DNA from: Oscillospiraceae bacterium
GTDB taxonomy: Bacteria > Bacillota > Clostridia > Oscillospirales > Acutalibacteraceae
Direction: 5' to 3'
Length of the DNA: 32,339 bases
Assembly (NCBI GenBank): GCA_015066045.1
Contig: SVPD01000026.1
Location: 1-32,339, forward strand
A program made the position numbers and the translations under genes. This document shows positions 4,116 through 32,267 of the stretch, piece by piece; positions within the stretch are counted from its first letter, which is position 1, and each line of letters opens with the position of its first letter. A model generated the notes under the pieces. The model saw nothing but the letters and a program-made list of their open reading frames with translations. It had not been told where the DNA came from and made no database searches.

Positions 4116-4135
4116 GAAAAACACAGAAAATATGT

Positions 4136-4270
4136 TTTCTTCTTCCGTCCGGACTGTAACCGTCGGCTTCGGAATCACACCGAATCTGCACGAAGTTTTA
4201 CTTCGGCTCGTGGGCTAAGGTCAGAGACCTATTACCACCGGTGAGGAATCACACCTCGCCCTGAAGATAT
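4136..4270 (-). promoter_or_regulatory. FMN riboswitch (RFN element)
   Basis: The minus strand carries the RFN core: ATCTTCAGGGCGAGGTGTG, ACCGGTGGTAATAGG, TAGCCCACGAGC, ATTCGGTGTGATTCCGAAG, CCGACGGTTACAGTCCGGA and the closing AAGAAGA. The order and conserved blocks match the family. It binds FMN and, through the following terminator, shuts off the vitamin transporter gene when flavin is plentiful. Confidence 0.95.
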
Positions 4271-4281
4271 TTTATGGTTAT

Positions 4282-16165: not shown

Positions 16166-16203
16166 TAAAAAACACCGTCGGAGCTTAAAATCTCCGACGG
16201 TGT
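16166..16203 (-). terminator. Terminator of the giant secreted-protein operon
   Basis: ACACCGTCGGAG and CTCCGACGGTGT form a perfect 12-bp stem, followed on the minus strand by TTTTTT, 14 nt after the stop of the PLD/phosphoesterase gene. Confidence 0.9.
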
Positions 16204-16216
16204 CTGCATTTAAGTC

Positions 16217-19200
16217 TTATTTAACCTTTACGCTCTTTACGGCACTCCATGCACCGTAAACCTTCTTTCCGCTGACAGAGGTATAAGCTCTTATTTTAAA
16301 GTAATAGGTTTTACCCTTTTTGAGCTCTTTTACCAAGGTAAATTTAGAGGTGCCCGTATTCACTGTAAGCTTTTTACTGCTTTTGAACTTTTCAGAGGCG
16401 GAATACTGCACCTGATAGCCCGAGGCTCCCTGTACGGGCTGCCAGTAAAGAGAAGCTCTGGAGGGACCTGCCGCTGCATTGGTGAATTTCACCTTGGCGG
16501 GTGCGGTGGAGGTGCTGACAGTGACGGAGGAGGTGGCATAGACTCTCTTTTTGCTTATGGTCTTGTATGCCGTTACCCTTACCTTATAGGCCGTTACCTT
16601 TGAAAGCTTTTTAAAGGTGACCTTGGTCTGCTTGGTAAGGTCCTTTTTGATAACCTTGCCCTTGGAATTGATAAGCTCTACCTTATAGCCGCTGGCTCCG
16701 GTTACCTTCTTCCAGCTCGCCTTAAGAGAGGTAACGGACGGGGTAACGGTGAGCTTTTTGGTTTTGGACGGAACGATGGTAAAGTTTTTTTTCTTGGTTC
16801 CGCTGTACTTACCCTTAAAGGTGACCTTGACGGTATATTTACCTGTCTTTTTTCTGCCCTCAGAATAGGCAACGGTATAATCCGTACCCTTTTTAAGCTT
16901 ATTACCCTTACTGTCAGTTACAGTCACTGAGGGAGTCTTCTTCTTTCCGTTATAGGTGTACTTGGTTTTGGAAAGCTTTACTGTTTTCGGTGAATAAACC
17001 TTTTCGGTTTTGCTTTCACCGCAGGAGGTACACACGTATTTGACCGAACCGTTTTTATCTGATGTGGCCTTGGTGCTGCTGACGGTGTCATAGGTATGCT
17101 TATGCTCATCCAGACTGATGGTAAACTGACTGAGCGGCGAGCCGTAGCAGTCCTTGGCTACAGAATAGTAGCGTACGGTAAGAGTGTCTCCGTCATCGGA
17201 GAAATAGAGCATAGCCACCATAGCCGTAGAACCGTTATTAAGGTCCACATACTGGGGATCGATAAGCATCTGGGTTACGGTGTTGCCGTTTTCGCCCTTA
17301 TCCTGACGGTAAACTATATGCTGCCAGGGATCGTGTCCGGAAAGCACCATAAGCACATTTTCGTGCTTTGAGAAGCACTTTTTCCACATATCGTCACCGT
17401 TCTGTGCATCGGTATAGCCTGTGTAATAGGTGGGAGGATAGCAGTCACCGTCATCGATAGTGGTGCCGTCACGGTACATATATGCGTGAGTTATCACGAT
17501 AACCTTATGGTCGGGATGCTTCTCGATTACCTTGTTTGCCCAGTTGAGCACAGCCTCACTCGGAGCGAAATCGAGAGTCATAATGAGATAGTCCGTACCC
17601 TGAACATTGAAATAACGGTAGGAATTGGTAAGGTCGCCCTTTACCTTTCCGCCCTCGGGGGTGTCCCCTTCTTTGGTCAGATAGACCGTTTTACCGTTCT
17701 GTGTGGTTTTGACAAGTCCGGGCTGACTTTTATCGGTGAGAGAAACCGTTCCCGATTTCATCATTCCGTCTACGGTCTTTTCATAAAAGCCGTTATGAAG
17801 ATTTCTGTTATAGTCATCCCAGTCGTCGTGATTTCCTCGGGTGAGAGCATAGGGGATTTTTCCGTTAAGCTTACTGATGTAGCCCGTAGCTCTCGACCAC
17901 TCGGTATCGGTACTGTCATCGGTAATGTCGCCTAAGCCGATAACATAGGAAATTTTCTGACTGTCCTTATTTTTGAGAAGCCAGTCATAGACAGCCTCCA
18001 TAGCCTCGGGATCCTTTTCGCACATAGTCTGTGTGTCACCGATTACTGCGAAGGAATATTCGTAATCCGTAACTGCCTTTACTTCCTTTTTGCTGAGCCA
18101 GAAATCCATATATTCCAGATCGTTTCCTTTGGTTGAAAGGTCAGCCCTCACACATTTTCCGCACTGTGTAAGGTCATAGGCTGCGAGCAGGTTTTTATCT
18201 GTATAGCTTATTCCGTCCTTGAAATCATTTGAGATTTCCTTAGCGGAGCGTACGTCTGACCACACGGCCACAGAGTACATTATGCCTCTGAAATAGGTGG
18301 CGTTACCGTTTCTGTGGTCACCGCCGATAACTGCATTGTGCTTTTCCTTAAAGGCTTTGATGGTGGAGGTTTTAAGCGTCTGTGCCAGCTTACCGTCCAC
18401 ATAGCAGTGCATTTTTTTGTTTGCCGTGTCGATGACAAAGGAAAGATGCACCTTTTCACCTGTGGCTACATTTACGTTTTTGAAAACATAAACATCCTGC
18501 TTGGAATAGTCTGCCTTGGCACGGATGGCCACACGGGGATTACCCGACTTATTGAGTGAAAATACCAGTGCGGGATCAAACATACCGTCACTGCCGAGAA
18601 GAGTAGTGGTGCCCGTAAGCAGGTCTGCCTCCACGGAGAAGGTAGCCTCAAAGGTAAGAGGCATGCTTTCGTATTTTTTGCTCAGTATGTACTGCTCATC
18701 CGTGCTGCATCTGAGACCGTCCGTATTATGGCAGTCTATGCATTTCACCACGGTGACTGTTACCGTATAAGAGTTTTTACCGTCGGTAACGGTTATTTTA
18801 GCCTTGCCTGTCTTATGAGCGGTAACCTTACCGTTTTTATCTACAGTGGCCACGCTTTCCTTAGCTGAGGACCATTTCAGACTGCTTTTTCCCGAGTAAA
18901 CCGCCTTCAGCTTATAGGTATCCCCTACCTCCAGAGCGATGTTCGGTGTTTCCACCATAAGCTCCTTATCAAGCATACCGTAGGAATACTTTTCACCCAT
19001 AATCTTATAAAAATTACCGCCGCTTGCATCGGTTTCGTTAATAACGAGCATAGAGTTTGTACGGTAGTTGAAGGCTATCATATAGAAGTTACAGGAGGTC
19101 AGAAGTGACACTCTGTGACGCTTGCCGTTCTCTACATAATTAAACATAAGGTCCTTTGAGTGAATACCCGAGCCGTCCTTGATGCTTCTGTAGCCGATTT

Positions 19201-20644
19201 CGCTGCCGAGAGAAAGTCTCTGTATTTCATCGGTATTGAAATCATCCACACGCAGAGAGATTTTATTTCTCGGATCGGGATTTTCGCAGAAGGCCTGCTC
19301 AAACATATCAGACATTCTCTCGCCTAAAAGGCAGTCACCGTAACCGAATTCGTTCCAGATAACCTCCACATAATCTGTGGATTTAGCGAGCTTTTCGGAG
19401 TATTTACAGATGGGGTTCGCATCGGTGTCCCATGCATCGGAGCCGCCGCCGAAGGGAGTAAAGTAAAGCTCGAAAACAGGATCGTTCTTTCCGCCGAGAT
19501 AAACAATCTGCTCATCCTTCGGTATCTGATTTTCCTTGCCGCTTTTAATGAGAGCTATCTGTTCATTGTTAGCCTCGTTCATATACTTACGAAGCTCAAA
19601 CATCTGCTCCTTACCGCTGTATTTTTTCATCAGCTGCATATAGTTATAGGTCACACGGTAAAGCTCACTGTGGTCGGAGATGATAACACCTGACTGTGAG
19701 CTGTTGTTACCGTTGGCACCGATGTAGTTATTCTCGTCCAGATTTGCACTGCCGAAGAAAACTGCATTTTTATGCTCCGTACCGTCGGTGGCAAGATAAT
19801 GAGAAGCGGTGGCACTCTTTACGTGCTGCATATCGCTGGTTTTATCCGTTACGTTCCAGCCTACCTTGACATAGTTAAGGTATTCGGAAACCTTCTTTCC
19901 GGGAGCGTACTTTTCATAGCAGTCACCCTCCATAGCCTGTGTGAAATAGGTGTAATGGCTGAGGTTTGACCTGCTTTTAAGCTTTTTGGTGGAGGGATTA
20001 TACTGACTTACACCGTAGGAATTAAGCTGGTTAATCATAGTAACCTCGATACCCATTCTGGCCGCCTCGGTAAGCATATAGGAGATACGCACGAAGCCGT
20101 GCTCGTCATAGTTGGTACCGTAAAGAGAACGCATATAGCCGTAGTATTTACTGGTGGGGATAACGCACACGGAGGCCGTTACCGAGGTTCTGTAGGAGGA
20201 GAAGGTAAGCTTCACATCCTCGGTGGGATGCTTACGCTTATACTGAATGCACTGATAAATCAGAAGTCCCATACCGTTATTAGGATCGCAGAGAGACTCG
20301 TTATGCACTCTGTAAAAGGCCTCAGCCGTTACCTTTTTGCCGTTTATATTGGCATAGGTGGTGGAGCCTAAGCCCTGAAAGTTTTCGGGGTTATTGGCTA
20401 CGGGCATTTTATCGTAATAGGGAGTGATTGAATGCTTGTTGTTCTGTTTGATGTTCTTTTCTATTTCGGGAAGAATGACATCGAAAAAGGGCTTCTCCTG
20501 ATCTATGGGATCTACATAGTGATCCTTGACAAAGGCATTGGTTTCACTGGGAAACGCCGACGCACCGAAGGAGACCGTGGCACAGAGGCTGAGCAGTATC
20601 CCTGTCAAAAGCAGAGCGCCGATTAAAGAAATTATTTTTTTCAT
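16217..20644 (-). CDS. Secreted multidomain protein: PLD-like, Big2, LamG-like, calcineurin-like phosphoesterase and FN3
   Basis: 1475 residues. A signal peptide covers 1-27. Residues about 110-560 are a two-lobed phospholipase-D-like domain: H274-V-K276 with GSAN at 298-301, and H495-S-K497-D498 with TSCN at 516-519. Then come Big2 (563-632), a LamG/concanavalin-like domain (663-812), and a metallophosphoesterase (862-1175) with D870-x-Q872, GD906, GNHD937-940, H1053 and GH1104...H1109. A CxxC motif (C1205/C1208), a beta domain (1221-1290) and two FN3 domains (about 1290-1475) follow. No sortase, SLH or other anchor is evident; the C terminus is very Lys-rich. It begins 18 nt after the giant beta-helix gene with GAGGTGATAT as ribosome binding site. 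Substrates could be phospholipids, nucleic acids or teichoic acids; not decidable here. Confidence 0.85.
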   Translation of the reverse strand: MKKIISLIGALLLTGILLSLCATVSFGASAFPSETNAFVKDHYVDPIDQEKPFFDVILPEIEKNIKQNNKHSITPYYDKMPVANNPENFQGLGSTTYANINGKKVTAEAFYRVHNESLCDPNNGMGLLIYQCIQYKRKHPTEDVKLTFSSYRTSVTASVCVIPTSKYYGYMRSLYGTNYDEHGFVRISYMLTEAARMGIEVTMINQLNSYGVSQYNPSTKKLKSRSNLSHYTYFTQAMEGDCYEKYAPGKKVSEYLNYVKVGWNVTDKTSDMQHVKSATASHYLATDGTEHKNAVFFGSANLDENNYIGANGNNSSQSGVIISDHSELYRVTYNYMQLMKKYSGKEQMFELRKYMNEANNEQIALIKSGKENQIPKDEQIVYLGGKNDPVFELYFTPFGGGSDAWDTDANPICKYSEKLAKSTDYVEVIWNEFGYGDCLLGERMSDMFEQAFCENPDPRNKISLRVDDFNTDEIQRLSLGSEIGYRSIKDGSGIHSKDLMFNYVENGKRHRVSLLTSCNFYMIAFNYRTNSMLVINETDASGGNFYKIMGEKYSYGMLDKELMVETPNIALEVGDTYKLKAVYSGKSSLKWSSAKESVATVDKNGKVTAHKTGKAKITVTDGKNSYTVTVTVVKCIDCHNTDGLRCSTDEQYILSKKYESMPLTFEATFSVEADLLTGTTTLLGSDGMFDPALVFSLNKSGNPRVAIRAKADYSKQDVYVFKNVNVATGEKVHLSFVIDTANKKMHCYVDGKLAQTLKTSTIKAFKEKHNAVIGGDHRNGNATYFRGIMYSVAVWSDVRSAKEISNDFKDGISYTDKNLLAAYDLTQCGKCVRADLSTKGNDLEYMDFWLSKKEVKAVTDYEYSFAVIGDTQTMCEKDPEAMEAVYDWLLKNKDSQKISYVIGLGDITDDSTDTEWSRATGYISKLNGKIPYALTRGNHDDWDDYNRNLHNGFYEKTVDGMMKSGTVSLTDKSQPGLVKTTQNGKTVYLTKEGDTPEGGKVKGDLTNSYRYFNVQGTDYLIMTLDFAPSEAVLNWANKVIEKHPDHKVIVITHAYMYRDGTTIDDGDCYPPTYYTGYTDAQNGDDMWKKCFSKHENVLMVLSGHDPWQHIVYRQDKGENGNTVTQMLIDPQYVDLNNGSTAMVAMLYFSDDGDTLTVRYYSVAKDCYGSPLSQFTISLDEHKHTYDTVSSTKATSDKNGSVKYVCTSCGESKTEKVYSPKTVKLSKTKYTYNGKKKTPSVTVTDSKGNKLKKGTDYTVAYSEGRKKTGKYTVKVTFKGKYSGTKKKNFTIVPSKTKKLTVTPSVTSLKASWKKVTGASGYKVELINSKGKVIKKDLTKQTKVTFKKLSKVTAYKVRVTAYKTISKKRVYATSSVTVSTSTAPAKVKFTNAAAGPSRASLYWQPVQGASGYQVQYSASEKFKSSKKLTVNTGTSKFTLVKELKKGKTYYFKIRAYTSVSGKKVYGAWSAVKSVKVK

Positions 20645-20662
20645 AATATCACCTCTCTGTTG

Positions 20663-23600
20663 TTACGGTAAGGTTACCATATTGAAGGTAATGCTTGTTC
20701 TGTTACCGCCGATGAGTGCTGTGGTGTACCAGGGAGCATCTTCGCCGTATGTGGTGTAAATACGGGGTGGATTGCCGTAGTTACTGTTATACAGGTAGAT
20801 GAAGTAGCTGTCCTTACCGCCGTTACCTGCGTTACCGCTTGCGTTCACATCACCGGTAATGTAAACTCTCGAATAGTTCGAGGTCACATAAATAGCGCCT
20901 CCGTTTGCCTTGGCCTTATTACCCGTGGCAGTGATGCCGTCAAATTTAGCGCAGCTGCTTGAACGGATTTCTACGGCTCCGCCCGTGGATTTGACTGATT
21001 CATTTCCCGTAAACGTGCAGTCGGTGAATACGATGTCAACCTTTTCGGGGCCTTCGGCAACAGTACAGTTGCCGTTTCTGATTTCTACGGCTCCTGCACC
21101 TTCGGTGGTAACAGTGTTTCCTTCAAAGCTGCAGTCATAGGCATTGATAATCAGCTTCGGGCTTGCTTCATCCGTGGAAATCGCACCGCCCTTTTTATAT
21201 GCCACATTATTTTTAAAGGTCGTACCGCTTACCGTAAGGCCGGTAGCGTTGGTTCCCTCATCGGAGGAATCGGCTACTACGATAGCACCGCCTACATCTC
21301 CTGTAGCACTGTTGCTGAGGAAAACGGTGTTTTCGGTTTCCATAACCGCTCCTGTGTCAAGATATACTGCACCGCCCGTGGGAGCACTGTTGCCCTCGAG
21401 CACGGTATTATCAGAAATCATAATCTTGCCCTTTTTATCCGAGAAGACGGCACCGCCCTTTTCCGTAGCAGTATTATTCTTTATGGTGCCCGATGTGACG
21501 GTTACCGTGCCTTTATCTGTGGACACATTGATGGCACCGCCCTTTTTGGCTGTGTTTGATTCGAGGGTGGTATTATCGATAACAAGCTTTCCGGATGAAC
21601 GGAAATCGATAGCACCGCCTAAATTTTTGGCCGTATTACCGCTCAGAACAGAGTCGGAAAGATTTACGTTAGAGCTGCTGCTGGAGTAAATCACACCGCC
21701 GTTATTATTTTTGTTTCCTGTGGCTGTAAGTGATGTAATGTCAAGTGTAGCCGTATTCGTGATGTAAATTACACCGCTGCCGTCAGCCTGAGCTATGTTA
21801 TTTGTAACGCTTACTCCGTCGAGGGTATAGGTGCCGTTGCCGCGGAAATCGAGAGCCGCACCTGTAGTTCCCTTATTGTTATTTATAACAGAATCGTCCT
21901 TTACGGTAACCTGTGCATTGGATGCGGTAATCGCACCGCCGTAATAGCCGGAGGTGTTTTCCTCGAGAGTTACACCTGAAAGCTCAAGGGTGTTATCGTT
22001 CGCATAAATAGCACCGCCGCCCTCGCCGGCTGCCGAGCTTGTTGCTCTGTTCTTTTTAATCACTGTGTCGGTAAGATATACCTCGCAGCTCGTTCTGAGG
22101 CTTATCGCACCGCCTGCTAAAGCAGTGTTGCCCTCGAAGAGTCCGTCTGTAGCGTTGACCACACCGGGAATATTAACCTTGTTTTCGCCTTCGCCACTGG
22201 TTTTATAGGTTACATAGATGGCACCGCCGTGATTTTCGGCAATATTTCCGATAAATTCATTTTCTCCGGTGAGGGTGACTGTACCAGCAGAGGTAGTCAG
22301 AGCACCGCCGTTACCGTTTTTACCGTTCGCATCCTTAGCTGCTTTATTTTCGCTGAATGTAACACCGCTCAAAGTGAGCTGACCGCCGTTATTATAGGCA
22401 GCACCGCCGATGATAGAGCTATTCTTTTCAAATACAGAGTCTGAAACGGTTACGGTGGCTGAGCTGAGATTAAGAGCACCGCCGTATACCGCACTGTTTT
22501 CCGCAAACAGAGAATTCTTTATTTCGCCTACGGTTCCCGTGCTCGTGAGAATAGCAGCACCGCTTTCTGCCGTGTTTCCTTTAGCCGTAATGCCTGTCAC
22601 GGTAAGTGTACCGCCTATCTGGTAAACGGAGCCGTTTGTACCCGTATTATTTTCGACGGTAATGTTTTCGAGAGTGGCTGAGGAGCCGTCTCTGAAGTAA
22701 AGGGCACCGCCCGTGATACCGCTATTGTTTCTGATAATGCTCTGTCCGTCGATTTTTACTGTGGATTTAACAGAATGAAGAGCACCGCCGTAATAATCTG
22801 TCTTGTTTTCAGCGAGAGTAACACCGCTTAAGGTAGCCGTACTGTTTTTAAGGAAGACTGCACCGCCGCCGATATTACTGTTTACCTCTCCTGAAATCTG
22901 AACAAAATCAGACTCATTTCCGCTAATCTGAGCTCCGCTGACCGTAAGCTTGGAGTTAGCCAAAGCGTAAATCACACCGCCTGAGCCGGCACTGTTTCCG
23001 GTATAGCTGCCGCCGCTGATGCTCACCGTAGCACCCGCCGCATCGAGTACACCGCCGAAGTCAGATGCAGTATTTAAAGTGGCTGTAACATTATTCAGTG
23101 TAGCCTTACCGTAACCTACATAGACAGCACCGCCGCCTTCAGCGTTACCGTCATTGCTTTCGTCGGTATAGCCCTCTACGGAGTTTTCAGTGAAGACAGT
23201 ACCGTCGAAGGTAGCCTCGCAGCCTGAACGGATGCTTACCGCACCGCCGCCGAGAGCCGTATTTTTACTGAATGTGCCGCCTGTAGCAATGAAATTACCG
23301 TTTGCATTTTCGGTCATTCCCTCGTCCTTGGTATAAACCACATAAACCGCACCGCCGTGATTTACGGCACTGTTGCCTGTAAATTCACAGGCTTCGTCTG
23401 CAGTGACAGATGCACCTACGACATCTGCCGCACCGCCGTTTAAGCCGGCAGTGTTATTACGGAATTTTACGTTACTGAGAGTGACCTCGGACTGATTGAA
23501 GTATGCCGCACCGCCGTTTGAAGCGGCACTGTTATTTTCCAGTGTAATATTTCTGATGTCTGCCGTACCCTTGTAGGTATTGACTACACCGCCGTTTGTG

Positions 23601-26600
23601 GCACTGTTTGTATTAATGGTACTGTTTTCGAGCTTGAAAACGCCCTCCTTGGAATAAGCCACACCACCGTTTTTGGCGGTATTTCCCGTAAGGACACTGT
23701 TCTTTATGCTTGCGGTAGCCTTTTCGAAGAAGACTACACCGCCGTTTGTGGCGTCATTTCCTGTGATTGTAGAGTCAGTAACATTAATTTTTGCCTTTGC
23801 GTTACTGCCGTAAATCACACCGCCCTGATATGCCTTGTTTCCCGTAGCGGTAACATCGGTCAGATTAAGAGTACCGTAATTGATGTATACCACACCGTTA
23901 CCCTTGGCCGTATTATCCTTTATTTCGATACCCGTAAGGTCTGCGGTGACGGTGCCTTTGAAGTAAAGAGCCGCACCCGTGGAGCCTTCGGAATTTTTAA
24001 CTACGGTTTCCTCATTCATAGTAACCTGTGCATCAGAGGCCAGAACCGCACCGCCGTAATAGCCTGTCTTGTTTCCGTCGAAGGTACATCCGCTCACGGT
24101 AAGTGTACCGCCTCTGTGATGAACTGCCGCACCGCCGATATTACTGTCGTAAGCCTCGGGGTCCTGAACATAAAGAGACTCGTTTCTGCTCATAACTGCA
24201 TCGGTGATGGTTACATCAGACTTACTCATAGAGTAAATCACACCGCCCGAGTTTGTCTTGTTTTCAGAGAAGCTGCCGCCGTTAATGCTTACCTCGGCAC
24301 TTACTGCATCGATAACACCGCCGAAATCGGAGGCAGTATTTCCGGTAGCGGTTACGCCGTCAAGAGTAAGCTTACCGTAGCCTACATAAACTGCACCGCC
24401 GCCGTCACCGTCACCGTCATTTTCGTCAGCATAGCCCTCTGCGGAGTTTCCGGTGAGCATAACTCCGTTCAGCTTAGCCTCACATCCCGTACGGATGCTT
24501 ACTGCACCGCCTGCCATAGCACTGTTTCCGCTGAAGGTGGTTCCGTCAGCTTCGAGCAATGCATTTAACGTAACAGTTTCGGTACTGTTATCTTCGGGAT
24601 TGGTAACAGTATTTTTGATATAGGTGAGATAAACTGCACCTGCATGGTTTTCAGCCGAATTCTGAAGGAAATAGGTGCTTTCATCAGCATAAAGATTTGC
24701 CGCTGACAGATATACTGCACCGCCGTGTCCGTTTGAGCCTCCCGAGGTTTTAACGGCACTGTTCTGTGTGAAAGAGGTTCCCTTTACGTTGATAGTGCCC
24801 TGCTTGGTATAAACGGCTCCGCCAAGGTTTGCCGTGTTACCCTTCTGCTCACCGCCGTTTATATTGACAGTAGCATCGGCTACATACATCGTACCGCCGC
24901 TTTTGGCACTGTTCCCGTTAAGTGAGCAGGCCTCAATATTTACCTGTGTAGCTGCACCGCTGACATAAAGGATACCGCCGTTTGCGGCACTGTTACCCTC
25001 AGCAGTGACATTTATCATATCGAGAGTACTTGAATTGACATAAACATTACCGTTCGAGGAGGAGGTATTGTCGGTAAGCTCAACATCCTTAAGCGTTACC
25101 GTACTGTTATAACGGAACTGCAGAGCCGCACCTGTGGCACCCGAGGAATTTTTAACCACTGTGTTACCGCCGACGGACACTGTAGTTTTCGCTGCAGCGA
25201 TAGTACCGCCGTAATAGTTTGATTTGTTTCCGTCAAACACTGTACCGTCTACGGTAAGAGTGCCCTTTGAAATATTTATGGCACCGCCGCCGAGATCACT
25301 GTTATAGTCGGAGTTTACATAAGAAGACTCGTTACCCGTAAACTCAGAGCCCTTGACAGTGAGCACAGAGCTGCTGATAGCGTTTATGGCACCGCCCGAG
25401 GCTGCAGTATTATTTTTAAGAGTGACACCGCTGACGTCTACAGAGGAGCCCACGGAATTTACCGCTCCGCCGTGACCTGCACTGGTGTTATCGGAAAGAA
25501 GAGTGTCAGTGAGGCTGAGTGTACCGAAGCCTACATAAACCGCACCGCCGCCAAAGCCGTCGATTTCCGTACCTGAGGCACTGTTGCCACTGAGCTTACC
25601 GCCTGTAATATTTGCCTTACAGGCTGAACGGATGCTTACTGCACCGCCTGCCACCGCACTGTTATTTTCAAACTTAACGTCTGTAGCGTTAAGCACTGAG
25701 CCGTGCTTGACATTATCGACGGTCTTATATGTCATATAGATGGCGCCGCCGTGATTTACTGCACTGTTTGAAACAAATTCGCAGGTAGAGTCAAATGTAA
25801 CGGGAGAAGCACCGAGATAAACGGCACCTGCATGGTTGGCAGCACTGTTATTTCTGAAATCAACGTTATCGAAGCTTATGTCTGCCTCGTACATATAAAG
25901 CGCACCGCCGTTACCGTTGCCGCCGTTAGCACTCAGACGTGTACTGTTTGACTCGAAGGAAACATTTTTCATATCTACGGCCGCATTTGAGGATGCATAC
26001 ATAGCACCGCCCGTGGCTGCAGAGTTTCCCGTAAACTTACAGTCGTCCATATCCACCGTGGAGCTACTGTGAACGGCCAGAGCACCTGCATTATTATCGG
26101 AGCTGTTTCCGCTGAAGGTACAGTCGCTGATTACAGCGTCGCTTTTTCTGGTTATGTAGATAGCTCCGCCGTTACCGCCTGAGCCCTCATAAATTACGGC
26201 CTTATTGCCTTCGAAGGTACAGTCTGAGATGTCTCCTCTGGTACCCATATCCGTTTCTGCCACAGAATCGGATGCGCTGAGAATCAGAGCACCGCCGAGA
26301 TTTGCAGTATTGTTTATAAACTTACAGTTTCTGAGAGTCAGCTCACGGCGTTCAAACTCAGCCTTGGTATAATGATGATAAATAGCACCGCCGCTATATA
26401 CGCAGGAATTGGAATCGAAAACCGTATCAGAAACAGTAAGAGGACCTGCAGTATAGATAACACCGCCGCTGGTGCTACTGCTGTTATTTACAAACTCAGT
26501 GTTTCCGTAAATAATGATGGGGCTGCTGGTGTTTGAGTAAAGAGCACCGCCGGCTCTGTGTGAATGGTTGTTTTTGAAGAGCATGGTTTTGCCGTCGCCC

Positions 26601-28924
26601 TCACTTCCGATAAACAGGTCTGCGTTCGAAGAAGAGGAGGAAGCGACACCTGCACCGTAATAATGGCTGATGTTTCCGATAATGCTGCCGGATACAAGAT
26701 ATGCTACACGGTCGTTATAGAAGGCACCGCCTCTGAGACCTTCACTGTTCGAAACAGTACCGCCGTACATATTGAAATTACCGCGGTTATAAATCGCACC
26801 GCCGCAGCCGTTGAGCTCGAGCATGGTTTCCGTGCCGTCAGCATTTTTCTGAACGGTATGCTCAGTAGCTACAAGGTTATTATCGATGAGACCGCCGTAC
26901 ATATTTACCGTACCGTTTATATTAAGAATAGCCGCACCGCCTGCACGGTCAGTGGAGCCCGTGCTTATGTAATCGGTGAACTTAAATACTCTTTCATTAC
27001 CGATTTTTTTGTTATTGATAATCTTTATACCGTCATAAAGGTTAAGTGCTGCACTTTCACAGACAAACACCGCACTGCCCTTTACGGTGGTTTTAAGCTC
27101 GTTTCTGTTACCGTCTACGGTAAGAGTACCCTTGCCGCCGCCCAGAGTGAGCGCTGCTTTACGGTGAAGAGAGGTGGCACTTACACCGTCTTTATCGGTG
27201 CCGACCACGAAAATGTCACCTGCATAATCTGCGGCACGCCTGATTGAATAATTGCTGTCAGAATAAATTTTGGTTTTATAGGAAATGAAGATAGGCTCGC
27301 TTACCACGATATCGGCAGTGATACAGATTTTATCCACGCCCGCATTCGCACGCTTGACCAGCTGCTGCAGTGAGCCCGTGCCTACCAGCTTCCACTGAAC
27401 ATAAACTGTTATGTTTTTCTTTACCGTTCCCTTGCTTGCAAAGGTGTTACCCTTTGAATCGGTGAACTTTTCGAAGGCATAGCCGTCTTTGACGGGCTTT
27501 TCGAGATTATAGCTTCCGTCTGCAGGTACACCGACCTTATAGCTTCCCGAGCCTGTGTTTACGGTGATGTAATAAACCGCCTTGAGCTTCGGGATGGAGC
27601 GGTCCTTGTAATAGCTGCATTTGCTGCAGGTTCTTCTCTCGATACCCTCAGTCTGTACGGTAGCCTTTCTGTAAACCTTCCACGAGCCGAGCTTGTGTCC
27701 CGAGGAAAGAGTAACGGTCTTACTGGTAACCTTGTTTCCGTATTCATCCTTGATTACGCAGTAAACCTGTCTGCCGTCTGACTTATTATTCATTTCGGTA
27801 GTGTAGGTGCTGCCCTTGACGGTTTTTACCTTTGAGAAGGAGGATTTATTTTTATCCTTATAGTACCATACATAGGTAAGTCCGTCACCCTTGGCACTAA
27901 CCTTTACCTTGGCTTTTTCACCCTTATGCACGGTGACCGAGGAGGGCTGCTTTGTAATCTTCGCTACCACACCCATACGAAGAGTAACGGTAGCCGATTT
28001 CACCTCGTTACCGTATTTATCCTTTACGATGCAGTAAACCTTGCGTCCGTCGAACTTGCTGCTCATAGTGACAGAATAGCTGCTTTTTTTGAATGCGGTG
28101 GCACGTGTGTAGCTGCTCGCACTTTTATTCTTATAGTACCAGCTGTATGTAAGTCCTTCACCCTTTGCCTTAATGCTTACCTCAGCGGTTTTACCCTTTT
28201 CCGCACCTGTGGAGACAGGCTGCTTGGTTATTTTCAGTATTTTACCCATAAAGAGAGTAACCGTGTCGGTCTGTACCTTTTTACCGTATTTGTCCTTTAT
28301 TACACAGTAAACCTGACGGCCTCTCACCGTACTGTTCATCGTCACGGAATAGGTAGAAGTTTTGATGTCAGACTTGGTGAATTTGGTTGCATTTTTATTT
28401 TTGAAATACCAGGTGTATTTAAGACCGTCACCTTTGGCGGTAACCTTCACCTTGGCTGCTTTGCCGCCGGCTGCAGCTACGGAGGCAGGCTGCTTGGTTA
28501 TTTTCAGCGGTGTGCTCATGGTAAGAGTAGCCACCTCTGACTTAACCTTTTTGCCGTACTTATCCTTTACCACGCAGTAAACTTTACGTCCGTTCACCTT
28601 GCTTTTCATGGTAACGGAGTAGGTAGCTGACTTTACATCCTTGGCAAGAGTGTACTTTTTGTCACCCTTGTTTTTATAATACCAGCTATAGGTAAGTCCG
28701 TCACCCTTTGCCGTTACCTTCACCTTGGCCTTCTTTCCCTTGTTTACGGCCACGGAGGAGGGCTGCTTCGTTATTTTCAAAGCAGTCTTTTTGGCAGCAT
28801 AAGCGACCTTGGCGCTTTCTACGGTCAGGGTGTCCTCCTCAGCTGAGGCAGCAAATCCCGCACAGAAGGCACACTGAAGCACCATTATAAGTGCCGCTAA
28901 GGTGAGCAAAAATTTTCTGTTCAT
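20663..28924 (-). CDS. Giant secreted right-handed beta-helix protein with N-terminal Ig-like repeats
   Basis: 2753 residues. A signal peptide (about 1-25, MNRKFLLTLAALIMVLQCAF) leads into four Lys-rich Ig-like repeats of about 90 residues each (about 49-408, each with ITKQP, a W-Y-x-K-x-K core and VYC-(V/I)-(V/I)-K). A CxxC motif (C433/C436) and an InlB/Flg_new-type repeat (about 451-513) follow. The remaining 2200+ residues are a parallel beta-helix with dozens of coils of the type N-(S/T)-A-x-x-G-G-A-(I/V), recalling chlamydial Pmp and other adhesin repeats. These coils are organised in four super-repeats. No LPxTG, SLH or membrane anchor ends the protein. The ATG at 28924 follows AAAGGAGAGATAAC; an upstream in-frame ATG falls in the promoter. 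It is probably an adhesin or surface scaffold; ligand unknown. Confidence 0.88.
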   Translation of the reverse strand: MNRKFLLTLAALIMVLQCAFCAGFAASAEEDTLTVESAKVAYAAKKTALKITKQPSSVAVNKGKKAKVKVTAKGDGLTYSWYYKNKGDKKYTLAKDVKSATYSVTMKSKVNGRKVYCVVKDKYGKKVKSEVATLTMSTPLKITKQPASVAAAGGKAAKVKVTAKGDGLKYTWYFKNKNATKFTKSDIKTSTYSVTMNSTVRGRQVYCVIKDKYGKKVQTDTVTLFMGKILKITKQPVSTGAEKGKTAEVSIKAKGEGLTYSWYYKNKSASSYTRATAFKKSSYSVTMSSKFDGRKVYCIVKDKYGNEVKSATVTLRMGVVAKITKQPSSVTVHKGEKAKVKVSAKGDGLTYVWYYKDKNKSSFSKVKTVKGSTYTTEMNNKSDGRQVYCVIKDEYGNKVTSKTVTLSSGHKLGSWKVYRKATVQTEGIERRTCSKCSYYKDRSIPKLKAVYYITVNTGSGSYKVGVPADGSYNLEKPVKDGYAFEKFTDSKGNTFASKGTVKKNITVYVQWKLVGTGSLQQLVKRANAGVDKICITADIVVSEPIFISYKTKIYSDSNYSIRRAADYAGDIFVVGTDKDGVSATSLHRKAALTLGGGKGTLTVDGNRNELKTTVKGSAVFVCESAALNLYDGIKIINNKKIGNERVFKFTDYISTGSTDRAGGAAILNINGTVNMYGGLIDNNLVATEHTVQKNADGTETMLELNGCGGAIYNRGNFNMYGGTVSNSEGLRGGAFYNDRVAYLVSGSIIGNISHYYGAGVASSSSSNADLFIGSEGDGKTMLFKNNHSHRAGGALYSNTSSPIIIYGNTEFVNNSSSTSGGVIYTAGPLTVSDTVFDSNSCVYSGGAIYHHYTKAEFERRELTLRNCKFINNTANLGGALILSASDSVAETDMGTRGDISDCTFEGNKAVIYEGSGGNGGAIYITRKSDAVISDCTFSGNSSDNNAGALAVHSSSTVDMDDCKFTGNSAATGGAMYASSNAAVDMKNVSFESNSTRLSANGGNGNGGALYMYEADISFDNVDFRNNSAANHAGAVYLGASPVTFDSTCEFVSNSAVNHGGAIYMTYKTVDNVKHGSVLNATDVKFENNSAVAGGAVSIRSACKANITGGKLSGNSASGTEIDGFGGGAVYVGFGTLSLTDTLLSDNTSAGHGGAVNSVGSSVDVSGVTLKNNTAASGGAINAISSSVLTVKGSEFTGNESSYVNSDYNSDLGGGAINISKGTLTVDGTVFDGNKSNYYGGTIAAAKTTVSVGGNTVVKNSSGATGAALQFRYNSTVTLKDVELTDNTSSSNGNVYVNSSTLDMINVTAEGNSAANGGILYVSGAATQVNIEACSLNGNSAKSGGTMYVADATVNINGGEQKGNTANLGGAVYTKQGTINVKGTSFTQNSAVKTSGGSNGHGGAVYLSAANLYADESTYFLQNSAENHAGAVYLTYIKNTVTNPEDNSTETVTLNALLEADGTTFSGNSAMAGGAVSIRTGCEAKLNGVMLTGNSAEGYADENDGDGDGGGAVYVGYGKLTLDGVTATGNTASDFGGVIDAVSAEVSINGGSFSENKTNSGGVIYSMSKSDVTITDAVMSRNESLYVQDPEAYDSNIGGAAVHHRGGTLTVSGCTFDGNKTGYYGGAVLASDAQVTMNEETVVKNSEGSTGAALYFKGTVTADLTGIEIKDNTAKGNGVVYINYGTLNLTDVTATGNKAYQGGVIYGSNAKAKINVTDSTITGNDATNGGVVFFEKATASIKNSVLTGNTAKNGGVAYSKEGVFKLENSTINTNSATNGGVVNTYKGTADIRNITLENNSAASNGGAAYFNQSEVTLSNVKFRNNTAGLNGGAADVVGASVTADEACEFTGNSAVNHGGAVYVVYTKDEGMTENANGNFIATGGTFSKNTALGGGAVSIRSGCEATFDGTVFTENSVEGYTDESNDGNAEGGGAVYVGYGKATLNNVTATLNTASDFGGVLDAAGATVSISGGSYTGNSAGSGGVIYALANSKLTVSGAQISGNESDFVQISGEVNSNIGGGAVFLKNSTATLSGVTLAENKTDYYGGALHSVKSTVKIDGQSIIRNNSGITGGALYFRDGSSATLENITVENNTGTNGSVYQIGGTLTVTGITAKGNTAESGAAILTSTGTVGEIKNSLFAENSAVYGGALNLSSATVTVSDSVFEKNSSIIGGAAYNNGGQLTLSGVTFSENKAAKDANGKNGNGGALTTSAGTVTLTGENEFIGNIAENHGGAIYVTYKTSGEGENKVNIPGVVNATDGLFEGNTALAGGAISLRTSCEVYLTDTVIKKNRATSSAAGEGGGAIYANDNTLELSGVTLEENTSGYYGGAITASNAQVTVKDDSVINNNKGTTGAALDFRGNGTYTLDGVSVTNNIAQADGSGVIYITNTATLDITSLTATGNKNNNGGVIYSSSSSNVNLSDSVLSGNTAKNLGGAIDFRSSGKLVIDNTTLESNTAKKGGAINVSTDKGTVTVTSGTIKNNTATEKGGAVFSDKKGKIMISDNTVLEGNSAPTGGAVYLDTGAVMETENTVFLSNSATGDVGGAIVVADSSDEGTNATGLTVSGTTFKNNVAYKKGGAISTDEASPKLIINAYDCSFEGNTVTTEGAGAVEIRNGNCTVAEGPEKVDIVFTDCTFTGNESVKSTGGAVEIRSSSCAKFDGITATGNKAKANGGAIYVTSNYSRVYITGDVNASGNAGNGGKDSYFIYLYNSNYGNPPRIYTTYGEDAPWYTTALIGGNRTSITFNMVTLP
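21600..25900 (-). repeat. Four tandem super-repeats in the beta-helix gene
   Basis: The same ordered landmarks recur: (F)xxNSAxNHGGA(I/V)Y followed by a Tyr-Thr/Lys stretch (DNA near 25730-25790, 24613-24680, 23326-23392, 22198-22262), GGA(V/I)SIR or SLR with Cys (near 25640, 24500, 23240, 22100), GGGA(V/I)Y, and (V/I)xNxxGxTG(A/G)AL (near 25140, 23985, 22720, 21870). Spacing is about 1.1-1.3 kb. The last copy lacks a block of about 90 residues between the GGGAIY and TGAAL landmarks. Boundaries are approximate. Confidence 0.75.
27701..28780 (-). repeat. Four Ig-like repeats, about 270 bp each
   Basis: Protein residues about 49-139, 140-229, 230-320 and 321-408 are four similar modules, each starting at (L/A)KITKQP and ending after VTL or ATL. 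The DNA of the four copies is recognisably similar, so unequal crossing over could change their number. Confidence 0.8.
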
Positions 28925-29000
28925 AGTTATCTCTCCTTTTAAAGAGTTTTTTTGAATTCCGGCATTTATTAAAACAAACGCACAGTCTGATCCGATTTTC

Positions 29001-29029
29001 ATTATACTATATTATGTCGGCGAATTCAA
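29001..29029 (-). promoter_or_regulatory. Promoter of the giant secreted-protein operon
   Basis: TTGAAT (29029-29024) and a perfect TATAAT (29006-29001) on the minus strand, 17 nt apart; it gives a leader of about 70 nt before the ATG at 28924. No comparable sigma-A promoter is clear for the divergent hydrolase gene. Confidence 0.65.
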
Positions 29030-29201
29030 GTAGATTGATTACGTGTTAACATTTTATATCAGTTTTGTTCTTAGTTAAATCTTGTCTTTTTTGTGTTTTT
29101 GCGGTTAATTTTGTTTTTTAGAGGCTTATTTTTCCATTACGGCAATAACTTTTATTTGTTGTGTGTTAACATAATATTTACAAAAAACGGAGGTGTTTAT
29201 T

Positions 29202-30911
29202 ATGAAAAAGTTTCTGGCGATTCTCCTTTCACTTATTATGATTCTTTCCGTTTCCGCACCTGCCTTCGCAGCAGCCGGAGTGGAAAACATCCCCACCATT
29301 ATGCTCAGAGGCGACGGCACACAGATTTATGTCACCGATGAAAACGGAAACGAGATAAATGTCTGGGGCGACTCACTGACAAGCATCAACAAAGACGAAA
29401 TAGCAGAGTCAGTAGCAAATGTTCTGCTGCCCTTCCTCACCGAAGGACTTCTCTTCGACGAATGGGACAACTACTATCAGGCATTCTACGATGAGGTTTC
29501 CCCCATTTTCGAAAACCTCAGACTGGACGAAAACGGTAATCCCCGCTACGGCTCAGGCATAGGCAAGGATGACCTTAAAGACATAGCATACACCCGCAGC
29601 CATAACAGAGTAAACGGCAACGGAAGCTACGGCATACATAGCTATACCTACTGGTACGACTGGAGACTTTCTCCCTTAGAGGTTATAGACGAGCTTCATC
29701 AGTACATCCTCGACGTAATGGCCGTTACCAAGAAAAACAAGGTAAACATCGTAGGCAGCTGCCTTGGCGGCTCTTATGTTCTGGCTTACTTAGAGAAATA
29801 CGGTCAGAACGGACACATCAAAAATGTCTTTTTCAATGTTACCGTAGGTAACGGTACCGTGCTTCTCACCGATGCCTTCTGCGGCGATATTGAAATCAAC
29901 GATAAGGCCATACAGAGATTTGCCTATCAGAATGTAGACCTCGAAAGCAATAGCTTCGCAGGCTTTTTCGAGTCCACCGAGCTTATAAACGAGCTTATCT
30001 TCGCCTCCTACGACCTTCTCTCGCAGGTAGGTGTTATCGACCAGTTAGGTCTCGCCTTTGACGAGCTTTATCAGAAAATTTATGAAGGTCTGGTCCCCCG
30101 TCTGGCCATAGCCATTTATGCCACCATGCCCGGCTACTGGTCAACCGTGGAAACAGACAGATACGAAGAGGCAATAAAGTTTGTTTTCGGCGAAAAGGGT
30201 GACGAGCTTTACGACGAATACGAAGGCCTCATAGCCAAGCTTGATGATTATTATAATACCGTAAGCATAAACAAAGAGAAAATCATCAGCGACTGTCAGG
30301 CTAAGGGTATCCATTTCGGTGCTATGGTAAAATACGGCGTACAGATGTATCCCTTCGTAGAAAGTCAGGACCAGCTTTCCGACGAGCTGGTGGATGTGAA
30401 GAATGCCTCCTTCGGTGCCACCGTGGCAAAGGATGTTTTCAGCAAATTCAGCGATGATTACATAAATGAAGCCAAGAAAAACGGCACAGATAAATACATT
30501 TCTCCCGACAGACAGATCGACACTTCGACCAGCATCTTCAAAGACACTCTCTGGGTGCAGAAAAACGTAAACCACGACCGTTTTCTTATGGATGACCAGG
30601 TTATCGCCGAATTCTGCCGCCACACAAACTACAACATCAATTCAGATCCCGCTTATCCTCAGTTTATGATTTATATTCCCGGCACAATGGAGCCCGACTT
30701 AGAGGACGGCGGATACCTCTACGACACAGGTGATATAGTTCCCATGACAGAGGAAAACTGTGAGCTTACCCTCTGGGATGAAATGCCCGAGGATGCCAAA
30801 CAGGAGGAGCCTACTCTTTTATCAAGACTTATGGCTCTGTTCAGGTTCCTTACGGCTATGTTCAAATATCTCATAGGCATAATCGACGAAAAGCCTGTAC
30901 TCGCACAATAA
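29202..30911 (+). CDS. Secreted LCAT/lipase-like alpha/beta hydrolase with a Cys nucleophile elbow
   Basis: 569 residues with a clear signal peptide (1-24, ending SAPAFAAA). YDWRLSP (152-158) followed about 30 residues later by VNIVGSCLGGSYVLAYL matches the start of the lecithin:cholesterol-acyltransferase/lipase fold. The nucleophile elbow reads G185-S-C187-L-G189-G, so Cys takes the place of the usual Ser in G-x-S-x-G. A Cys in this position is known in PHA synthases and dienelactone hydrolases. H458 (NVNHDRFLMDDQVI) is the likely catalytic His. The C terminus carries a hydrophobic/amphipathic segment (about 538-560) that may bind membranes. ATG 29202 follows GGAGGTG. It is divergent from the beta-helix/PLD operon. 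Acyl substrate unknown; it could be an acyltransferase rather than a hydrolase. Confidence 0.75.
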   Translation: MKKFLAILLSLIMILSVSAPAFAAAGVENIPTIMLRGDGTQIYVTDENGNEINVWGDSLTSINKDEIAESVANVLLPFLTEGLLFDEWDNYYQAFYDEVSPIFENLRLDENGNPRYGSGIGKDDLKDIAYTRSHNRVNGNGSYGIHSYTYWYDWRLSPLEVIDELHQYILDVMAVTKKNKVNIVGSCLGGSYVLAYLEKYGQNGHIKNVFFNVTVGNGTVLLTDAFCGDIEINDKAIQRFAYQNVDLESNSFAGFFESTELINELIFASYDLLSQVGVIDQLGLAFDELYQKIYEGLVPRLAIAIYATMPGYWSTVETDRYEEAIKFVFGEKGDELYDEYEGLIAKLDDYYNTVSINKEKIISDCQAKGIHFGAMVKYGVQMYPFVESQDQLSDELVDVKNASFGATVAKDVFSKFSDDYINEAKKNGTDKYISPDRQIDTSTSIFKDTLWVQKNVNHDRFLMDDQVIAEFCRHTNYNINSDPAYPQFMIYIPGTMEPDLEDGGYLYDTGDIVPMTEENCELTLWDEMPEDAKQEEPTLLSRLMALFRFLTAMFKYLIGIIDEKPVLAQ

Positions 30912-31049
30912 AATGGGGCTGTTGCAGTAAGATGCAGAAGGCGTTTTCTTCGCTCCGAAGATGTATGATTATACCTCGAGAGGGCGAAAAAACGTCTAAA
31001 AAAGCAAATATTTATTATATGCAACACCATATTATTCCGTAAAACAATT

Positions 31050-31119
31050 AAAACAGATGTGTTTTATAAGTCAGAAGCGACTTAAACACATCTGTTTTTG
31101 TTTTGCTTTTTGGTCTGCG
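31050..31119 (+). repeat. Recurrent hairpin element, copy 2
   Basis: AAACAGATGTGTTT / AAACACATCTGTTT is a perfect 14-bp stem with an inner TAAGTC/GACTTA stem, a T-run, then TTTTGCTTTTTGGTCTGCG. It matches the copy at 11249-11317, including the tail; an A-U pair in copy 1 is replaced by a G-C pair here. It can terminate the hydrolase transcript. Confidence 0.65.
31051..31099 (+). terminator. Terminator after the secreted hydrolase gene
   Basis: A long two-part hairpin (14 + 6 bp) followed by TTTTTGTTTT; it lies between convergent genes and may serve both. Confidence 0.75.
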
Positions 31120-31154
31120 CTTACTGCGGCAGCCCCTTGGTCTATGCTTACTTT

Positions 31155-31853
31155 TTACGCCTCTCTTTTTGCCGTCATCTTTTTTACCACTATGCTCATT
31201 ATTACCACGAAAACAGGTATCGGCACGATGTAAAGCAGACTGTAGGGATTTGAAAGGTCACCCTTGTTAGCCAAAAACGAAAAAAGAACATTAAAGGGCA
31301 GCATTCCGAGATTAGAGGCGAGGAAAAATTTAAAGAAATTTACGTTCATCGCACCGTAAATGACACTCATAAGGTCGGAGGGAACCACACCGGCTGCCTT
31401 GACCACATAAACCACCATAAATTCATTTTTGCCTGCGAAATCATCTAACTTTTTTATCTTCGGGAAGCGGAGCTTAAGCGTGTCAAGTAAGCCCTTGCCC
31501 GTAAAACGGCCGAAATAATAGGGAAGAATCACACTGAGAGCCACACCGATGAAATTTACGGCAATGGCGGTCCATACGTTTTCGAAAAGGATGCCCGACA
31601 CGGCGAAAATAACCGCAGGCGGGAAAACGAGTGCAAAGGATTTTATTACCGTAAAGGCAATAATTATCAGTGCGACGGTCAGCGTACCGCCCTTTATATA
31701 AGAAGAAATCTCTGCAGCATTTTCGACACTGATGTCGAATTTGTTCATCAGAATAAGCATGGCAGCCACCATACCGAGCATAAAGACGAGTGCCGCTATC
31801 TGTAAAATTTTTATCAGCCTGTCATAATTTTTAGTTTTTTCTGCAGTGTTCAT
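31155..31853 (-). CDS. TVP38/TMEM64 (VTT/DedA superfamily) membrane protein
   Basis: 232 residues with about six membrane segments. The core IKSFALVFPPAVIFAVSGILFENVWTAIAVNFIGVALSVILPYYFGRFTGKG matches the VTT domain (F/P-rich re-entrant loop, then G-x-x-x-x-x-x-Y-x-x-G-R), and AAGVVPSDLMSVIYGAMNVNFFKFFLASNLGMLPF is the second characteristic region. The DedA/VTT superfamily includes lipid scramblases and flippases; the specific role here is inferred only. The start is ATG 31853 behind GAGAGGAGAAAAG; the open frame extends 13 codons upstream. A consensus promoter lies at 31883-31911. Confidence 0.88.
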   Translation of the reverse strand: MNTAEKTKNYDRLIKILQIAALVFMLGMVAAMLILMNKFDISVENAAEISSYIKGGTLTVALIIIAFTVIKSFALVFPPAVIFAVSGILFENVWTAIAVNFIGVALSVILPYYFGRFTGKGLLDTLKLRFPKIKKLDDFAGKNEFMVVYVVKAAGVVPSDLMSVIYGAMNVNFFKFFLASNLGMLPFNVLFSFLANKGDLSNPYSLLYIVPIPVFVVIMSIVVKKMTAKREA

Positions 31854-31882
31854 TTCTTTTCTCCTCTCTTTTATATATCCAC

Positions 31883-31911
31883 ATTTTAGCAAAAAAGAAA
31901 TCCCCTGTCAA
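31883..31911 (-). promoter_or_regulatory. Promoter of the TVP38/TMEM64 gene
   Basis: TTGACA (31911-31906) and TAAAAT (31888-31883) on the minus strand, 17 nt apart. It is back to back with the promoter at 31936-31964; the two -35 boxes are 24 nt apart. Confidence 0.75.
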
Positions 31912-31935
31912 TAACACCTGTATACACTTAAGTCA

Positions 31936-31964
31936 TTGACAGTATTAATTCTGTATGATAAAAT
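31936..31964 (+). promoter_or_regulatory. Promoter of the small His-rich protein gene
   Basis: TTGACA (31936-31941) and TAAAAT (31959-31964), 17 nt apart, about 30 nt ahead of the start codon. Confidence 0.75.
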
Positions 31965-31993
31965 AAAGAAAAGTAAACAAAGGAGCTTTAAAT

Positions 31994-32185
31994 ATGAAAA
32001 AGATTTTTATTCCCGTAGCGATAGTAGTTCTCATTCTTGCTGTCATAGCCGTTATTCTCAGCAAAACCTCTCCCACTCAGCAGAACTATCACGTCCACGA
32101 GGACGGCGAAACTCACTACTACGAAGAGGTAGAGACCACCTACCATGTTCACGATGACGGTGAAACCTATTACGACGAGCATTAA
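31994..32185 (+). CDS. 63-residue membrane-anchored His/acid-rich protein
   Basis: Residues 1-23 form a membrane anchor or signal (IFIPVAIVVLILAVIAVIL). The remainder holds two copies of a short motif: YHVHEDGETHYYEE and YHVHDDGETYYDEH, separated by a short VETT link. Each copy has several His and acidic residues that could chelate metal outside the membrane. I recognise no family. ATG follows AAAGGAGCTTT at good spacing, with a perfect-spacing promoter, so it is a real gene despite its size. It is divergent from the TVP38/TMEM64 gene and may be co-regulated with it. Confidence 0.75.
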   Translation: MKKIFIPVAIVVLILAVIAVILSKTSPTQQNYHVHEDGETHYYEEVETTYHVHDDGETYYDEH

Positions 32186-32267
32186 AAAAACGGGGCTGCG
32201 GACATTCGCCGACGAGTGGAAAGGAAGCATTTCTTTTAAATGTGAAATAACATCACAATAATGCGTT

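Follow-up and report, generated by a model that had tools for sequence, protein, structure and literature searches.

A giant beta-helix and an enzyme-like partner

We analyzed a stretch of 32,339 nucleotides from an Oscillospiraceae bacterium (the window) and found that two of its genes belong to a pair that recurs in some gut Clostridia. Gene B encodes a giant right-handed beta-helix, gene A encodes a multidomain protein with an enzyme-like N-terminal domain, and it is near certain that this domain is coupled with the beta-helix. We favor, as the probable reading, that the two products work as one unit, in which a surface beta-helix scaffold presents a PLD-like phosphodiesterase to extracellular phosphodiesters. 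The pair offers a two-part surface system that can be tested, and the enzyme-like family at its center lies beyond the reach of the Pfam and NCBIfam models. An earlier note on this DNA had joined a third, divergent gene (gene C) to the pair. The three open reading frames all exist, with their translations, and the 277 bp given for the gap between the divergent genes is right because the starts lie at 28924 and 29202. The N-termini of the gene A, gene B and gene C proteins each look like a signal peptide by eye, so that all three are probably exported, as the note had it, and a surface location is presumed for the products of genes A and B. The features are collected in Table 1.

Table 1. Features of the window and the basis on which each was assigned
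Feature	Positions	Strand	Basis
Gene A, exported multidomain enzyme-like protein, 1475 aa	16217..20644	-	ORF; Pfam; 18 bp downstream of gene B
Putative PLD/Tdp1-like domain, gene A residues 31-565	18950..20554	-	HxK...N motifs; sub-threshold PLDc_2 in relatives
Big_2 Ig-like domain of gene A	18749..18946	-	Pfam
Laminin_G_3 (Laminin-G-like) domain of gene A	18230..18601	-	Pfam
Calcineurin-like metallophosphoesterase domain of gene A, accessory	17327..18055	-	Pfam; motifs
fn3 domain of gene A, C-terminal	16271..16504	-	Pfam
Gene B, exported Pmp-type right-handed beta-helix with N-terminal Ig-like repeats and CxxC module	20663..28924	-	Pfam matches; signal peptide by eye
N-terminal cap segment of the beta-helix, common to 16/16 partners	26633..27385	-	Cap-family alignment, 16 rows
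Gene C, exported alpha/beta-hydrolase-like protein, Cys elbow C190 (numbered from GTG 29193), outside the A-B unit	29202..30911	+	ORF; family profile
Stretch that carries gene C plus a gene with a VTT domain	29062..31953		Missing in G014, whose locus is collinear apart from this
Edge of the A-B block	16171..16216		DNA homology stops at 16171 in comparison with G011 and G017

Coupling of the two genes across genomes

Homologs of the N-terminal domain of gene A were found by sampling of draft genomes, which gave 16 among the matches listed and is no full census. All 16 were coupled to one giant beta-helix family. In ten loci the enzyme gene lies directly downstream of the helix gene, with a gap of -4 to 23 nt as counted from first start codons, and in the other six the enzyme part is fused to the C-terminal side of the helix; the order, helix first and enzyme second, is constant in 16/16. 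The natural fusions show that helix and enzyme belong together. Among 394 genomes of the order, the enzyme part and the cap family (at E 1e-10) were found in an identical set of 7, to which the cap search added a single match, weak and partial, in G441 (8e-11); the cap model had been built from the very loci it afterwards recovered. The helix and enzyme trees hold the same groups, with a Mantel r of 0.83 and a p of 1e-4 that is the floor of 9,999 permutations. Where a fused protein carries several caps, the tree was made with the one closest to the enzyme; for G1006 and G887 the cap alignment contains the second cap. The enzyme match of G973 was scored across one TGA, and its 565-aa enzyme ORF stops where the domain ends. 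In the reading that we favor, genes B and A move and evolve together as one functional unit.

The distribution of the pair is patchy, and the gene A domain was present in at least 4 of 34 genomes of the genus among the matches listed. DNA homology with two congeners that have no A-B pair at that site (G011 and G017) ends at the left edge of the block. The pair has presumably spread horizontally; no relatives on viral contigs, plasmids or phages were found as carriers. By title or abstract start, we found no paper on the pairing of a beta-helix with a PLD-like domain, though one may exist.

The beta-helix of gene B

The earlier note had called the gene B product a giant beta-helix, and the Pfam matches bear this out: Chlam_PMP scored 117.8 bits (cut-off 20.6) and Beta_helix 92.8 bits (cut-off 25.9). 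With the 19-position Chlam_PMP model, no further matches besides gene B were found in this genome. Gene B encodes 2779 aa from its first ATG, where the ORF opens (29002), or 2753 aa from ATG 28924, a start that has an RBS-like AAGGAG. Like the Chlamydia Pmp proteins and other Pmp-repeat adhesins, its product has above-cut-off Pmp repeats in an exported-looking giant beta-helix; unlike them, it lacks a matched autotransporter barrel (none C-terminally among Pfam domains at E up to 0.1), is coupled to an enzyme-like domain and has an N-terminal cap family of its own. The sole PDB sequence match of the cap/helix profile was Rhombotarget A (PDB 9cdu, NCBIfam TIGR04212), at E 7e-5 over GG-repeat rungs, but this match is confined to the repeats, and gene B scores 22.8 with the NCBIfam model against a cut-off of 295. 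The helix would have about 80 turns and be some 40 nm long.

The domains of gene A

Gene A is preceded by AGAGAGG. The earlier note had read its product as a PLD-like domain joined to a metallophosphoesterase. The second part holds, since Metallophos scored 47 bits (cut-off 21.5), and the domain carries GDTQ, GD, RGNHD and GHDPWQH, which we take to be metal-ligand-type motifs. The first part rests on motifs and on sub-threshold PLDc_2 matches in relatives, with no PLD match in Pfam for the window's own protein. A metallophosphoesterase is on the enzyme chain in 6/16 homologs and is a separate nearby gene in one more (G973), and it is an optional add-on to the A-B unit. Because the enzyme genes of G291, G338 and G982 have neither LamG nor metallophosphoesterase, these two domains are not part of the core. 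The DNA of the fn3 end of gene A resembles several other sites in the same genome.

The N-terminal domain itself matches no named family in Pfam or NCBIfam. It has two HxK...N motifs (H274, K276, N301 and H495, K497, N519), whose six residues are invariant in 16/16 homologs; identity among the 16 domains goes down to 38%, and two invariant HxK pairs arose by chance in 7 of 200,000 random deals. The position of the HKD aspartate, five residues after the motif lysine (HxKxxxxD), is Ser in all 16 at the first motif, and Ser in 13, Asn in two and Thr in one at the second. By sequence, the two motifs are a PLD/Tdp1-like signature minus the HKD aspartate.

With the phospholipase D superfamily (HKD, Pfam PLDc_2) the domain shares the two HxK motifs and, at the first motif of the family, a downstream Asn in an S-x-N-type context. 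One relative, G291, also matches PLDc_2 over the first HxK, at 19.6 bits against a gathering cut-off of 27 (1 of 10 sequences scanned). Two of 12 members matched PLDc_2, with 5.6e-4 as the best E; the other ten had no PLD match up to E 10, and no member shown reached the gathering cut-off. The family is unlike HKD enzymes in its Ser for Asp at motif 1, in scoring below the Pfam cut-off, in having a giant beta-helix as fusion or gene partner and in a profile match that is not significant: against two ordinary PLD proteins from relatives the probabilities were 0.7 and 1.9%, and against five unrelated controls 0.1-0.6%. The pieces aligned were the HxK region in one of these proteins and a stretch from G-x-x-R-I-S to G-I-x-V in the other. 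No internal duplication of the domain was detected above shuffles; the score between its halves was 18.7, the shuffle mean was 14.9, and 2 of 40 shuffles scored higher. A single-sequence structure model (pLDDT 33, pTM 0.30) was too poor for use, and PDB profile searches up to E 10 gave no sequence relatives of the domain and no Tdp1 chain.

Each half of the gene A domain has His, Lys and Asn but lacks the HKD aspartate, a pattern it shares with Tdp1-type HKN phosphodiesterases. Tdp1 has catalytic HKN motifs according to the abstract of PMC12280126; the definition of the HKN motif used here comes from abstracts and general background. Gene A differs from Tdp1 in being an export-type bacterial protein with no Tdp1 sequence match, and its PLD-like fold, catalysis and substrate are presumed.

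Proposed function of the pair and alternatives

In the mechanism that we propose, the helix most likely serves at the cell surface as a scaffold that adheres or holds substrate, with the enzyme encoded by the next gene or carried C-terminally on the helix chain itself. The two HxK...N half-sites would most likely act through a phospho-histidine, the route taken by PLD and Tdp1, and the enzyme would most likely cleave or transfer extracellular phosphodiesters; candidates are phospholipid head groups, polymers of the teichoic-acid type and nucleic acid. Carbohydrate binding would come from LamG domains, and the metallophosphoesterase, in one clade, would strip released phosphate. If active, the domain would add an extracellular HxK...N branch to the PLD-like enzymes and would assign a function to one class of giant beta-helix proteins. 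A bolder form, which we regard as rather speculative and improbable, is a hitherto undescribed surface machine that has spread through gut Clostridia as a cassette. In it a capped giant beta-helix fiber would be obligately paired with PLD-like phosphodiesterases or phosphotransferases that form a new HxK...N branch; the enzyme would work processively along a fiber-held polymer, or its transfer chemistry would anchor the fiber covalently, independently of sortase, to surface phospholipid or teichoic acid.

The missing HKD aspartate could also mean that the PLD-like fold of the domain is catalytically dead and serves to bind ligands with phosphate, which would make the pair purely adhesive. The sibling domains (Big_2, LamG and Ig-like) are of binding types, and one study (PMC2978679) describes PLD4 as having HKD motifs yet no PLD activity. 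However, six residues that stay invariant in all 16 homologs at such low identity are unexpected in a dead site, and the catalytic motifs of Tdp1, by the abstract cited above, are themselves HKN; we consider a dead fold unlikely. Scavenging of phosphorus or nucleic acid seems to us similarly doubtful. There the PLD-like domain would cut DNA, RNA or glycerophosphodiesters outside the cell, and phosphate would then be removed by the metallophosphoesterase, which fits the sharing of one chain in six homologs, the nearby gene of G973 and the presumed metal-ligand-type motifs of the window protein. But the enzyme protein lacks a metallophosphoesterase in 9/16, BLAST found no further relative of the window's phosphoesterase in those locus stretches, no third gene recurs widely among the A-B neighbors (in a comparison made without family annotation), and the giant helix is left unexplained.

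Gene C

Gene C, whose best start is ATG 29202 and whose end is 30911, had been described as LCAT/lipase-like with a Cys elbow. The lipase likeness and the elbow stand: in the elbow region the family profile finds LipA-type lipases and PhaZ7, and the elbow residue is Cys, not Ser, in 42/42 near relatives. The LCAT assignment fell below the Pfam cut-off (14.1 bits vs 21), with LCAT matches at E up to 0.01 in 8 of 24 family members, and Abhydrolase_1 was also weak (18.4 bits vs 25.8). D397 and H461 are invariant in the 24 rows of the family alignment and are the probable Asp and His partners of the predicted nucleophile elbow in a putative triad.

A lipid-acting system of all three genes, as the earlier note proposed, would draw on the physical adjacency in the window, on the exported alpha/beta-hydrolase-like nature of gene C and on a 39% paralog of gene C in G015 that lies about 24 kb from gene B on the same contig, C6 (among the matches listed). 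The note had set neighborhood comparison as the test, and this comparison refuted gene C as a conserved part of the unit: A-B coupling held in 16/16, whereas gene C adjoins the pair in 1/16 loci, is separable in relatives and shows no conserved three-gene co-occurrence. With tblastn at E up to 1e-3, the surroundings of the remaining 15 loci showed no relatives of gene C, in stretches that ran from 755 bp (G014, at a contig end) to about 13 kb beyond gene B. The collinear locus of G014 lacks the gene C segment between gene B and the next shared gene, and in G015 the closest gene C homolog among the matches listed (62-63%) is on another contig, C23. Gene C is one of about 14 paralogs in this genome and has relatives in 34/34 genomes of the genus among the matches listed, against the at least 4/34 given above for the gene A domain. 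We therefore regard a three-gene system as highly improbable; gene C comes from a large paralogous family and is a bystander, outside the A-B unit, and its case illustrates that adjacency in a single genome can mislead.

The CxxC module

CxxC motifs had been located correctly at C433/C436 in gene B (from ATG 28924; C459/C462 in the long ORF) and at C1205/C1208 in gene A, which has further CxxC at 635 and 828. As a functional link between the two operon proteins, CxxC was rejected, since the module recurs in other large ORFs. The strict pattern of the gene B module matched six ORF entries, gene A not among them: gene B and its G014 ortholog, the fused G055 protein twice, and ORFs in L074 and L007. 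A looser pattern, which also catches the gene A CxxC, matched 31 ORF entries with overlapping loci counted apart; they include L074, two neighbors in L127 and ORFs in L002, L003, L006, L007 and L008, the last five being a biased set from this genome that was picked for DNA similarity to gene A.

Coupling of the enzyme domain to a giant beta-helix

The window is an entire contig of a 2.24-Mb draft genome (G000). An ORF listing showed that the three exported genes claimed for 16217..30911 in the earlier note are all present, and its CxxC coordinates for genes A and B proved correct when the motif positions were rechecked. Features of the window are collected in the table.

Positions, strands and content of features in the window (gene content from translation and domain scan)
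Feature	Position	Strand	Content
SAM riboswitch	3291-3387	minus	exceeds Rfam cut-off; upstream of S-adenosylmethionine synthetase gene
FMN riboswitch	4133-4272	minus	exceeds Rfam cut-off
Small ORF pair	10643-11210	plus	two overlapping 95-aa ORFs, adjacent
Gene A	16217..20644	minus	18 bp downstream of gene B; N-terminal domain unnamed in Pfam, then Big_2, LamG, metallophosphoesterase, fn3
Gene B	20663..28924	minus	Ig-like repeats, CxxC module, very long Pmp-type beta-helix
Gene C	29202..30911	plus	divergent from gene B; weak alpha/beta-hydrolase match
Small gene	31994-32185	plus	protein with repeated HxHxDGExxYY-type motifs

The N-terminal domain of gene A (residues 31-565, here the enzyme domain) was found, among the matches listed from 147 relatives, in G000, G011, G014, G015 and G055; the remaining listed matches fell in the query's Big_2, LamG or metallophosphoesterase domains. 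A search of 394 genomes of the order found the domain in 7 genomes (8 copies including the window, 7 of them new), and a search of 246 genomes from the family of G448 found it in 9 (10 copies, 4 new), giving 16 copies in total. Only the window's own genome matched in samples of the class (391 genomes) and phylum (209), and no relative was found in viral contigs, plasmids or phages.

Reading of the neighbourhoods showed a giant beta-helix coupled to the enzyme domain in all 16 copies. Ten loci are split, the helix gene immediately preceding the enzyme gene in the same orientation (window, G014, G015, G448 twice, G465, G291, G338, G973, G982), and six encode a single chain, helix first (G011, G055, G401, G290, G1006, G887). 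All 16 helices have a homologous N-terminal cap. Searching the order genomes with the cap returned the same 7 genomes as the enzyme domain plus a weak partial match in G441 (8e-11); under independence this overlap has a probability of 3.6e-15, or 2.9e-14 with G441, both overstated by shared ancestry and by derivation of the cap model from these same loci. Gene B is the sole Chlam_PMP match in the window's genome. The trees of cap and enzyme domain recover the same three groups, namely fused (support 100 and 92), short (100 and 99) and all others; a Mantel test between the two gave r 0.83 (p 1e-4). Taken together, these data strongly support A-B as a two-part unit, undescribed as far as our searches show.

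Both types occur in the window's genus, split in G000, G014 and G015 and fused in G011, and the pair G401 and G465 belong to one genus yet fall in different tree groups; this points to horizontal spread. With the congeners G011 and G017 the window shares about 84% DNA identity as far as position 16171, which lies 46 bp from gene A; there the similarity ends, and A-B is absent from that site in both. G014 is collinear with the window across A-B and the flank to its left. When neighbours were compared all against all, with large ORFs and window-G014 pairs excluded, only two pairs recurred beyond A and B: G291-G011 (45%) and G011-G973 (30%).

Likeness of the enzyme domain to PLD and Tdp1

The 16 enzyme domains share 51 invariant positions out of 480, including H274, K276, N301, H495, K497 and N519. 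When the invariant letters were dealt at random, two invariant HxK pairs arose in 7 of 200,000 trials; when the invariant columns were drawn at random, they arose in 22 of 200,000. At the position of the HKD aspartate of PLD enzymes, the first motif has Ser instead in 16/16, and the second has Ser (13), Asn (2) or Thr (1). Tdp1 is reported to have catalytic HKN motifs (PMC12280126), and PLD4, reported to lack PLD activity despite its HKD motifs (PMC2978679), shows that such motifs do not ensure it.

Pfam PLDc_2 matched 2 of 12 members (best E 5.6e-4). In a scan of 10 sequences the sole match was that of G291, which spans the first HxK (residues 159-292) and scores 19.6 bits, under the cut-off of 27. 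Since comparing profiles gave no significant match to two ordinary PLD proteins, no internal repeat was detectable in the domain, a PDB search with it returned no relative and its single-sequence structure model was unusable (pLDDT 33), we describe the domain as PLD/Tdp1-like in motif only, its membership being unproven. PLDc_2 matched in only 1 of 19 genomes searched in the window's genus (G000-G018), suggesting that ordinary PLD-type proteins, such as cardiolipin synthases, are mostly absent from it.

Variable add-on domains and a possible mechanism

A LamG-metallophosphoesterase tail lies in the same chain as the enzyme domain in 6 of 16 copies, assigned by Pfam (window, G448 twice, G465) or by full-length similarity and motifs (G014, G015). 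G973 encodes it separately, in a nearby gene. LamG follows the enzyme domain in all six fused proteins, and that of G401 (locus L100, 5947-17472) ends in a GDSL-type hydrolase domain. In G291, G338 and G982 the domain scan found none of these domains in the enzyme gene. Because the add-ons vary among the 16 loci, the core is helix plus PLD-like domain. Stand-alone LamG-metallophosphoesterase genes were also seen (L124 4829-7723; L014; L015), so the tail behaves as a movable module.

GG-type motifs in gene B have a median spacing of about 27 residues, which would give the helix some 80 turns; at the beta-helix rise of 0.48 nm per turn, its length would be about 40 nm. Of the 10 split helix genes, 5 have a simple lipobox-like pattern, which gene B lacks; it would fit surface tethering of some helix proteins. 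The coupling itself is shown and the mechanism inferred: with a long binding surface joined to LamG modules and a phosphodiesterase-like site, the unit may hold a polymer or target surface while it cleaves or transfers phosphodiesters.

Gene C and its family

A three-gene extracellular system had been suggested in the earlier note, which named conserved co-occurrence of the genes as a check. The A-B half stands, coupled in 16/16; conserved co-occurrence of all three does not, since tblastn found no gene-C relative in the stretches around the other 15 A-B loci. Homology between G014 and the window breaks off at 29061 and picks up again at 31954-32188, in a small gene, so G014 lacks the intervening 2.9 kb, which carry gene C and a VTT-domain gene. 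Gene C is thus a neighbour, and its family a separate finding without relation to A-B.

Scoring about nine candidates per genome, we found family matches in at least 48 of 147 genomes, including 34/34 of the window's genus. Close homologues occur in three named Clostridia MAGs, two of which carry goat and yak cecum in their titles. The window's genome has about 14 family genes, exported-looking paralogues (L138-L151), counting once a match lying in two stretches and excluding two signal-peptide-only matches; tandem members occur elsewhere (L084-L086). At the elbow, 42/42 near relatives among the loci retrieved have Cys, and five paralogues of the window's genome that are more distant have Ser. 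D397 and H461 are invariant in the family alignment (24 rows); in the region of the elbow, a profile of the family matches LipA-type lipases and PhaZ7. These alignments suggest an apparent Ser/Cys nucleophile switch within one expanded family.

Among the small ORFs, the first 95-aa ORF is 88% conserved in G014 and 94% in G011, and the G014 counterpart of the small gene at the right end adjoins RNase P RNA (L069 1-243).
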